Shown in pieces: positions 2,523 through 7,269 of a stretch of DNA of 64,000 nt. Made by a program: the position numbers and the translations under genes. The notes beneath the pieces were generated by a model, which was given only the letters and a program-made list of their open reading frames with translations, was not told the DNA's origin and did no database searches. Within the stretch, counting starts at the first letter, position 1. Each line of letters opens with the position of its first letter. Source of the stretch: Synechococcus sp. PCC 7336 (GTDB lineage: Bacteria; Cyanobacteriota; Cyanobacteriia; Thermostichales; PCC-7336). The DNA is taken from positions 1,287,268 to 1,351,267 of the forward strand of contig NZ_CM001776.1 of NCBI RefSeq assembly GCF_000332275.1, in the 5' to 3' direction.

Positions 2523-2930
2523 TCAATCTAGTCCAGACTGCTCGGATTCTGCCTGCTGTCGGGCAAACGCGCCCAAGCGATTGAGGGTGACTGACAGCCC
2601 CAACCGCAACGGTAACAAAGATACTCCCTCCACATGCAGCTGCACCCATCCATTTCCCCAGCGCCACTCGTTCCAGCCATCAATTGCCCCCCACAGGGTC
2701 AGCACCATTCGATCGCCTTCGAGAGCTTCCACCTGATGGCCGATGTGCAATGGCCCCAGATGGGAATCAAACTGGCTGCCCAACTCCAGTTGTAGGGGCA
2801 GGCGATCGTCTAACCGCTGCGGCCAGACCCATTGGCGCAGCAATGCTGCCTCAGTCACACATCGTGCCAGGACGGGCGCGGGAGCCTTTACGGCCACCCG
2901 TACCGTCGCAGTTTGCAATTTGCCAAACAT
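2523..2930 (-). CDS. SRPBCC/START-like conserved protein
   Basis: A protein of about 135 residues that looks like a small ligand-binding SRPBCC (helix-grip) domain: an N-terminal beta strand (TATVRVAVKAPAPVLARCV), a W-containing segment (ALLRQWVWP) typical of activator/cyclase-like SRPBCC proteins, then alternating strands with GWNEWRWGNGWVQLHVEGV and a C-terminal amphipathic helix. The start was set at MFGKLQ because the upstream nine codons look like non-coding extension; the ATG at 2957 is the alternative. Function unknown. It lies just upstream of the MscS gene on the same strand, about 50 bp away, and its 5' side faces the DnaA-box region. Confidence 0.6.
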   Translation of the reverse strand: MFGKLQTATVRVAVKAPAPVLARCVTEAALLRQWVWPQRLDDRLPLQLELGSQFDSHLGPLHIGHQVEALEGDRMVLTLWGAIDGWNEWRWGNGWVQLHVEGVSLLPLRLGLSVTLNRLGAFARQQAESEQSGLD

Positions 2931-3055
2931 CCCCAACCCCCGCTCGCAGCGCCCCATCTATTCTGGCAGGGCGATCGCCTCCCTCCAACCCCCAGTCAAA
3001 AGTTGTAAAAGATACTGAGCCCTTGAGGACAGTACTGAAATTTTGCCATTCCAAA

Positions 3056-3204
3056 CAAATTTTTTTTGCGCAACATTCCACAGGATTTCCCCAGAGTTTC
3101 CCCCAAGAGACCCCCAGTTTTTCAAAAGTTTTCCACAGGTTTCCACACCTTTTTCCACAGGTGCCGAACGAGTTTTCGAGAGTTACGGGGCAATCTGGGG
3201 AAAA
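3056..3204. other. cluster of DnaA-box-like repeats, candidate oriC or DnaA-binding locus
   Basis: Two perfect copies of the cyanobacterial DnaA box TTTTCCACA lie at 3129-3137 and 3151-3159. Near copies are GTTTCCACA (3139-3147), CATTCCACA (3074-3082), ATTTCCCCA (3085-3093) and GTTTCCCCC (3096-3104), with an inverted TGGGGAAAA at 3196-3204. Successive TTCC cores sit 10-12 bp apart, roughly one helical turn. An A/T tract (about 3055-3067) precedes them. Genes on both sides are transcribed away from the cluster. I infer a DnaA-binding region. Whether it is the origin cannot be decided here, because dnaA and dnaN are not in the window. Confidence 0.55.
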
Positions 3205-3517
3205 CTCCCTCCCTAGTTCCCCCTATCCCCCACAGTGTTTCAAGATGTAAAGAGAAGCATGCATATCAGTCGATTGAATCATTGAAATTTTGGCAATTGG
3301 TTGCCTTCTCCGTGCGTGAATTGGATTGACAGACTCGCTATGGTTGGGGAAAGATTGAGTTCCATCGCCTCAAAGGTTTTTGTCACTCCAGCGAAATAGC
3401 TGTCGGGAGCCCCTGTGGAAATCTCGATACTGTTCGAGATGCGTTGTTGCGCTTGGCGAGAAACCGATGGGCTCTGACTGAGCTTGAAAAGTAGTACCAC
3501 TGTTTTGGGAGGTTGCC

Positions 3518-3718
3518 ATGAGCACGACGGTCAGTATCCTGACGGAAATTCCTGAAGAACTCAACGATACTTTGCAGGCATATTTGACCACTCACCCCGA
3601 TTGGGACCAAGATCGAGTGTTTACAGCGGCACTATCCCTCTTCCTGCTGCAAAATTGCGGTAGTAGCGATCGTCGGGCCGCCCGCGTCTATCTCAATAGT
3701 CTGTTCCACCGGTCCTAA
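3518..3718 (+). CDS. DUF2811-like small cyanobacterial protein
   Basis: A 66-residue protein resembling the DUF2811 family, which as far as I recall is confined to cyanobacteria and has no known function. It begins MSTTVSILTEIPEELNDTLQ, followed by HPDWDQDRVFTAALSLFLLQ and a basic tail with RRAARVYLNSLF. The fold looks like a short helical, ribbon-helix-helix-like protein. A GGGAGG ribosome binding site lies just ahead of the ATG. It is followed after 14 bp by the TldE/PmbA-like gene, so the two may be co-transcribed. Confidence 0.75.
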   Translation: MSTTVSILTEIPEELNDTLQAYLTTHPDWDQDRVFTAALSLFLLQNCGSSDRRAARVYLNSLFHRS

Positions 3719-3732
3719 TATCGCCACGCCAC

Positions 3733-5082
3733 ATGGGGTCAGCTTTCTCCACCCTCAATCCCGAGCAATTGCTCGATTTGGCCCTGCAGGCTGGGGCAAG
3801 CGATGCAGAGGTGTATGCATCGCAGTCGCGATCGCAGCCGGTCATTTTTGAAGCGAATCGTCTCAGGCAGGTGGAAAGTGTCGAGTCGGCAGGGGTAGCT
3901 CTGCGGGTTTGGTCTCGGGGACGCTGCGGGTTGGCGGTGGCTTGCGGACCTGTCGATGCGCGCCAGTTAGTGGATAAGGCGCTGGCCGCGAGTCAGTTTG
4001 GCCGACTGGAGGAACCCCTGTTGCCCGCTCGCGCTCCTGCGAGTTGGACCGTACCCCCTCTGGATATTGCAGTGGAGCAGTTAGTGGAATGGGGTCGTCA
4101 GGGAATCGCACAATTGCGCGATCGCCATCCCGATCTGATTTGCAATAGCGAATGGAGTCTCGATCGCGATGCTTCGAGAACGATCGATTCTCGCGGTTTA
4201 GATTACTCGTTTGTCGATTGGAGCTTGGAGGGGTATCTCGGGGCAGAGTGGATTCGAGGGGACGATTTTTTAGGGGTGGAAGCGGGGCAAACCGATGCCC
4301 CCCGTCCCGGTCAGCCCTCTCGAACGATGCAGCTCGATCGCTGGGTGGAAGCCATTGCTCGGCAATTGCGTTGGGCAGAGGAGACAGTGGCGATCGCACC
4401 GGGTCGCTATCCGGTCATCTTTCTACCCTCCGCCATCGATACCCTCGTGGATACAGCGATCGCCGCCCTCAACGGACGGCAAGTGTATCGGCGAGCCTCT
4501 CCTTGGTGTGACAAGTTGGGCGATCGCGTGACCTCGCCCCTGCTGTCCCTCTCCCAACAGCCGCTGCTGGGACCCTATGGCGTTCCGTTCGACGATGAAG
4601 GGACGCCGACCCGAGCGCTGGACTGGATTGTAGAGGGACAGTTGCGCCATTGGTTTTGCGATCGCCGTCATGTCCAACTATTGGGCTGCGACCCTACAGG
4701 AAACGGTTTTCGCGGCGGGCTCAATCACTATCCCGCACCGGGGCTGTACAACGCGATTTTACCGGCACCCCAGCTCTCGTTTGCAGATCTGCTGGCAAAG
4801 CTGGATCGGGGGATTGTGGTGGAACGGGGGATGGGCAATGGCGGCGATCTGTCCGGGGATTTTTCAATCGCTGTAGAACTGGGCTATTGGGTGGAGAGGG
4901 GCAGCATTGTCGGTCGAATTAAGGACACAATGGTGGCGGGGAATGCTTACTCGACCTTGCAACAGGCGATCGCGTTGGGAGCTGCGCCCGATGGCATTGA
5001 GCCCTGCGGGCGAGAATGGGCGGGGGCTTATTTAGCACCGGCTTTCTTAGTCGAAGCACTCTCGGCGATCGCCCCTGTTTGA
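3733..5082 (+). CDS. TldD/PmbA-family metalloprotease subunit (TldE/PmbA-like)
   Basis: A 449-residue member of the TldD/PmbA family, which forms a TldD-TldE heterodimeric peptidase acting on unfolded peptides. The N-terminal domain (LLDLALQAGASDAEVYAS...VESAGVALRVW) and the C-terminal domain with conserved GNGFRGG, MGNGGDLSGDFS and GRIKDTMVAGNAYSTLQ are intact. I see no HExxxH zinc motif, so this should be the non-catalytic TldE/PmbA partner. A TldD partner is not in the window. No clear Shine-Dalgarno sequence precedes the ATG, which may fit translation coupled to the DUF2811 gene ahead of it. Confidence 0.85.
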   Translation: MGSAFSTLNPEQLLDLALQAGASDAEVYASQSRSQPVIFEANRLRQVESVESAGVALRVWSRGRCGLAVACGPVDARQLVDKALAASQFGRLEEPLLPARAPASWTVPPLDIAVEQLVEWGRQGIAQLRDRHPDLICNSEWSLDRDASRTIDSRGLDYSFVDWSLEGYLGAEWIRGDDFLGVEAGQTDAPRPGQPSRTMQLDRWVEAIARQLRWAEETVAIAPGRYPVIFLPSAIDTLVDTAIAALNGRQVYRRASPWCDKLGDRVTSPLLSLSQQPLLGPYGVPFDDEGTPTRALDWIVEGQLRHWFCDRRHVQLLGCDPTGNGFRGGLNHYPAPGLYNAILPAPQLSFADLLAKLDRGIVVERGMGNGGDLSGDFSIAVELGYWVERGSIVGRIKDTMVAGNAYSTLQQAIALGAAPDGIEPCGREWAGAYLAPAFLVEALSAIAPV

Positions 5083-6850: not shown

Positions 6851-7269
6851 TAGCTTTCCTCCCGCTCCCGCCGAGCCGCCTGCAGTCGCTGGGCAATGGC
6901 CGTCATTTTGTCCACACTGGCGCGATCGAGGCTATCGGCAAACGCCGCCACCACATCGGGATTGCCAATCGAGAGGAATTCCTGCAATTTGGCATGGGCT
7001 TCAATGCTTTGGGCTTCTTGCCGGGTGAGGCGCGGCTGCCATCGAAACACCCGCTCGGACTTATTGCAGTTAAGCCAACCTTTCTGGGTGAGGCGATTGA
7101 GGATAGTGGTTACAGAGGTGTAGGCCAACTCGCGATCGGGATCGGACAAAATCTGCTGGTGGACGTCGCGAACGGTGGCCGACTCTAAATCCCACACAAT
7201 CGATAAAATCTCTCTTTCCAATGGACCCAAGGACAGTTGTTTGGGTTGGCGATCGGGCAGGGGAGCCAT
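6850..7269 (-). CDS. BlaI/MecI/CopY-family transcriptional repressor
   Basis: A winged-helix repressor of about 139 residues with the family hallmarks LGPLEREILSIVWDLESATV, the recognition region LAYTSVTTILNRLTQKGWL and a C-terminal dimerisation/cleavage segment. I set the start at MAPLPDRQ because AAGGA lies about 7 bp upstream. The ATG at 7302 has no visible ribosome binding site but keeps the frame. It forms a two-gene operon with the M56 peptidase. The target genes are not evident nearby; self-regulation is usual for such pairs. Confidence 0.88.
   Translation of the reverse strand: MAPLPDRQPKQLSLGPLEREILSIVWDLESATVRDVHQQILSDPDRELAYTSVTTILNRLTQKGWLNCNKSERVFRWQPRLTRQEAQSIEAHAKLQEFLSIGNPDVVAAFADSLDRASVDKMTAIAQRLQAARREREES

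Follow-up and report, generated by a model that had tools for sequence, protein, structure and literature searches.

A phased array of DnaA boxes upstream of DUF2811 genes as the putative DnaA-binding half of a promoter module in cyanobacteria

We identified a phased array of DnaA boxes upstream of a small DUF2811 gene in a 64,000-nucleotide stretch of the Synechococcus sp. PCC 7336 genome (the window). Judged from sequence comparisons, this array is probably the DnaA-binding half of a promoter module of fixed geometry that controls DUF2811 in nearly all cyanobacteria, and a promoter controlled by DnaA and serving a replication-linked protein appears to be the best reading of the locus. Features of the window are listed in Table 1. 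An earlier note on this DNA had placed the array between divergent genes; the gene relevant to it is the small ORF at 3518-3718 with its TTGACA at 3326, and the DUF2811 profile matched this ORF with 97.2 bits (curated cut-off, 26.6).

Table 1. Features of the array, the DUF2811 promoter and neighboring genes (positions in the window)
Feature	Position	Strand	Basis
144-aa gene in divergent orientation, with no family match; neighbor outside the module	2523-2957	-	
A/T tract left of the array	3053-3068		
Degenerate forward boxes at 3074 (CATTCCACA), 3085 (ATTTCCCCA) and 3097 (TTTCCCCCA), in steps of 11-12 bp	3074-3105	+	
Exact forward DnaA box, TTTTCCACA	3129-3137	+	sequence match
Forward DnaA box, GTTTCCACA, 1 mismatch	3139-3147	+	sequence match
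Last forward DnaA box, exact TTTTCCACA; anchor of the module	3151-3159	+	
Inverted DnaA box, TTTTCCCCA, 1 mismatch, 45 bp after the last forward box	3196-3204	-	
Remnant half HLR1 (RpaB-type) site, TGTAAAG	3245-3252	-	
DUF2811 promoter, -35 element (TTGACA), 175 bp after the last forward box	3326-3331	+	
Candidate -10 element of the DUF2811 promoter	near 3351-3356		alignment
DUF2811 gene (PF10929), 66 aa, the array's own gene	3518-3718	+	profile match, E 6.6e-28
TldD/PmbA-family gene, downstream; neighbor only	3733-5082	+	

The TTCC cores that the earlier note had reported at 3076, 3087, 3098, 3131, 3141 and 3153 were confirmed, as were its two exact copies of TTTTCCACA; its pattern was amended by the box at 3196, which is inverted and belongs to the array. 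Forms of the box with two mismatches occur at 3074, 3085, 3097 and 3118-3127. When positions 2958-3517 were subjected to 20,000 dinucleotide shuffles and boxes with at most one mismatch were counted within 90 bp, the observed number of four was never reached and the maximum was three (seven times), showing that the array is real. A lone inverted box with one mismatch was also observed at 3414-3422, within the DUF2811 leader. The whole 5.07-Mb genome contains 51 exact boxes, and exact boxes less than 300 bp apart were found at only two places, the array and the dnaN-dnaA region. In the A/T tract to the left of the array, AAATTTTT is shared by most Thermostichus-like relatives; many other cyanobacteria have an AT-rich block, TTTGCAATTCTTAT, on the same side of the array.

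The proximity of an A/T tract to a cluster of boxes would suit a replication origin, and an oriC away from dnaA/dnaN had indeed been proposed in the earlier note. However, that the array is an origin, whether main or secondary, is hardly credible. The dnaA and dnaN genes are adjacent on the minus strand at 1222.5-1225.1 kb of the genome (dnaA domain match, 1224.1-1224.6 kb; dnaN, 1222.5-1222.9 kb), 67 kb from the array, and the gap between them contains nine boxes with at most one mismatch in 300 bp, an AT-rich stretch and TAGTAGTAG adjoining the boxes. This cluster is denser than the array and bears the DnaA-trio-like repeat, whereas no such repeat was seen beside the array when the sequence was read by eye; moreover, Thermostichus-like relatives also carry a denser box cluster elsewhere. 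The array was therefore rejected as oriC. The GC skew was flat across the sampled 0.86 Mb of the genome, which is in line with the irregular GC skew of most cyanobacteria (PMC7198777). In the dnaN-dnaA region of L005, the trio-like repeat TAGTAGTAG was located at 7115-7150, beside inverted boxes.

The array accompanies DUF2811 far beyond this genome. It was found beside the same gene and with the same inner spacing in 8/8 other genomes of the order, so its absence in relatives, which the earlier note had named as grounds for refutation, was not observed; in all eight, the inverted box follows the last forward box by 44-45 bp. The gene itself was present in 190/194 cyanobacterial genomes; of 14 genomes used as controls, that of Synechococcus elongatus alone had it. 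We examined DUF2811 loci that had not been selected for the array (family hits and stretches taken by position) and detected a phased array upstream of the gene in 126/131, with genomes judged dnaA-less set aside and copies within one genome counted separately. Inclusion of 15 further loci, which had been found by the pattern TTTTCCACAN{34,37}TGTGGAAAA, gave 141/146. The same-strand pair test was passed by 2/156 downstream windows. A TldD-based scan of contigs was uninformative, with only one of its 80 loci (L098) reaching three boxes within 200 bp. Among the five exceptions, one (L336) keeps the array 1.6 kb further upstream, and weaker boxes occupy the proper places in two others (L283 and L297); loci of the dnaA-containing genomes G015 and G120 lack the array. 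In L336 (G405), the array occupies about -1663 to -1612 relative to DUF2811, apparently because of an insertion between the two.

The upstream neighbors of DUF2811 were diverse (95 clusters over 155 loci), and paralogous DUF2811 copies in G033, G180, G071 and G537 each had their own array, suggesting that the array travels with the gene. In the small-genome family f3, two or three DUF2811 copies were observed, each bearing an array (L191, L304 and L305 in G033; L308 and L309 in G180). In dnaA-containing genomes of family f31 (G390, G517 and G496), DUF2811 was strongly diverged and the arrays were intact (L254, L255 and L252).

The module also has a defined geometry, for which spacing and promoter counts include the pattern-selected loci. 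Neighboring boxes were 11 bp apart in 63 pairs and 21-22 bp apart in 207, and 481 boxes were in forward and 52 in reverse orientation. Alignment of 144 loci on the last forward box revealed phased weak boxes at -42 and -21 and a conserved degenerate inverted box at +44 to +52. An exact TTGACA, by which promoter distances were scored, was located 172-176 bp (21 hits) or 181-184 bp (66 hits) from the last forward box, 87 in total, the two modes being approximately one helical turn apart; 97 of the 128 TTGACA hits fell at 170-195 bp. Thus, as in DnaA-regulated promoters, the boxes occupy a conserved position relative to the promoter, while the distance from TTGACA to the start codon varies from 58 to 445 bp. 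In 37 loci, many from family f3 and some from others, no exact TTGACA was present at 150-215 bp. Between the array and the promoter, many loci contained a sequence resembling HLR1, whose consensus is (G/T)TTACA(T/A)(T/A)NN(G/T)TTACA(T/A)(T/A) (PMC11633204). Scored by the two TTACA half-sites only, a pair with at most one mismatch was present in 39/144 loci but absent from all mononucleotide-shuffled controls; with up to two mismatches allowed, 48 matches began at a distance of 90-94 bp from the last forward box. In the window, just one half of such a site is present, whereas many relatives have a fuller one approximately 90 bp from that box. These HLR1-like sites may bind RpaB.

DUF2811 tends to be lost together with dnaA. 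In a sample of 391 genomes that were at least 90% complete, 55 had no strong DnaA match (49 had none and six had only weak ones); the identifiers of 29 unlisted dnaA-less genomes were derived by elimination, and the tallies agree. DUF2811 was missing in 44 of these 55 compared with 10 of 336 genomes with dnaA (Fisher p = 6e-38, related genomes being treated as independent), and several of the latter 10 were fragmented assemblies. Since this test takes related genomes as independent and covers DUF2811 alone, shared ancestry or general gene loss could account for part of the co-loss. The same contrast was found within genera (e.g., g84, g168 and g138), whose dnaA-less members lack DUF2811 and whose other members have both genes. 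DUF2811 pseudogenes with internal stops were present in the dnaA-less G434, G533 and G602, where the array had been lost or had eroded. At two of these pseudogene loci (L250 in G602 and L251 in G533), the array and promoter region were gone, and a block similar to TTTTGTAATTCTTATCATTAGCT, which is elsewhere located left of the array, directly preceded the pseudogene.

Where an intact DUF2811 persists without dnaA, the array was gone (G149, G363 and G499) or eroded (G467, G303 and G443), so in these few lineages maintenance of the array depends on dnaA; TTGACA was still present within 400 bp of DUF2811 in five of these six genomes, the exception being G303. As the gene is intact in these six likely dnaA-less genomes, DUF2811 may have a DnaA-independent role. 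Two further genomes, G489 and G553, are in our judgement dnaA-less through assembly gaps alone (both are fragmented, at 91-92% completeness), and in each an intact array accompanied the best DUF2811 copy. One might suppose that the array is bound by another protein whose site resembles TTTTCCACA, as between one and three boxes persist in some dnaA-less genomes (three in G443). This is very improbable, given that the dnaA-less genomes examined had either no array or an eroded one and that the boxes fit the cyanobacterial DnaA box (PMC4674748).

A locus that titrates DnaA had been the other suggestion of the earlier note. Its DnaA-binding part is well supported by the phylum-wide conservation and by the decay of the array where dnaA was lost, both of which suggest DnaA as the ligand; pure titration was weakened, because spacing to the DUF2811 promoter is fixed, the array is repeated with gene copies and the distance to oriC is not kept. 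More broadly, the DNA site itself could be the functional unit, either for titration or for reactivation or inactivation of DnaA (similar to datA, DARS or the Bacillus subtilis clusters), and lie beside DUF2811 by history. The array is the sole place outside oriC with clustered exact boxes in this genome, as expected for sites of the datA/DARS type, it decays without dnaA, and it has an inverted box and a fixed inner geometry. Nevertheless, we consider such a control site unlikely in view of the fixed 172-184 bp to the promoter, the arrays repeated at gene copies and the co-loss of the gene with dnaA. In addition, datA and DARS keep their relative distance to oriC in E. coli (PMC5010248), whereas the array was 67 kb of 5.07 Mb (G000), 252 kb of 2.93 Mb (G005) and 1.05 Mb of 3.05 Mb (G001) from the oriC-like cluster in the three genomes compared.

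Linkage to the gene, phasing, the locked distance and decay of the array would all be explained by DnaA acting on the DUF2811 promoter. For DnaA binding and the direction of control, we infer the following sequence of events. DnaA would assemble into an oligomer along one face of the DNA, where the boxes recur at intervals of one or two helical turns. From this position it would influence the TTGACA promoter, 172-184 bp further downstream, perhaps through bending or looping of the DNA from the forward boxes to the inverted box located 44 bp away. Expression of DUF2811 would then reflect free DnaA, either its amount or its ATP state. Given that the gene disappears or is disrupted in genomes that lost dnaA, a role of the DUF2811 protein in the DnaA/replication pathway is most likely, and this protein may exert feedback on DnaA; co-loss would be explained if DUF2811 serves DnaA-dependent replication. 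A single-sequence structure model of the protein (pLDDT 76) gave no confident fold match and a profile search of PDB yielded nothing; a ribbon-helix-helix fold is our guess from the sequence pattern. No viral homologs were detected in the search made, and we found no mention of DUF2811 in the open-access papers searched.

In Synechococcus elongatus, DnaA activity was concluded to be under the control of factors yet to be identified (PMC6478999). With its phylum-wide DnaA-box promoter and its tendency to vanish with dnaA, DUF2811 is a direct candidate for such a factor. We tentatively propose that it may be the missing cyanobacterial DnaA regulator, and that a DnaA-sensing control region of its gene, with an RpaB-type (HLR1) site in the same module, would provide feedback tying replication initiation to light or clock signals. 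It is also known that dnaA is dispensable for replication in some cyanobacteria (PMC7198777), and the module makes testable why many of them keep dnaA nonetheless. The decay of both array and gene upon loss of dnaA points to a hitherto unknown part of cyanobacterial replication control.

Several known systems resemble this module in part. The dnaN-linked oriC of cyanobacteria has the same box, TTTTCCACA, and similar local box pairs, but the array has no dnaA or dnaN neighbor, fewer boxes and no trio-like repeat. Intergenic DnaA-box clusters outside oriC are also present in Bacillus subtilis; in contrast to these, the array has a single conserved target gene, a locked promoter spacing and co-loss with dnaA. 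The datA, DARS1 and DARS2 sites of E. coli are likewise intergenic box clusters outside oriC with a conserved inner arrangement, whereas the array is linked to a gene, travels with DUF2811 copies and lies at varying distances from oriC. Finally, in DnaA-regulated promoters, as in the DUF2811 module, DnaA boxes precede the promoter of a gene; the module differs from them in having an uncharacterized, cyanobacteria-wide target, a long phased array and a distance to the -35 element that is fixed phylum-wide.
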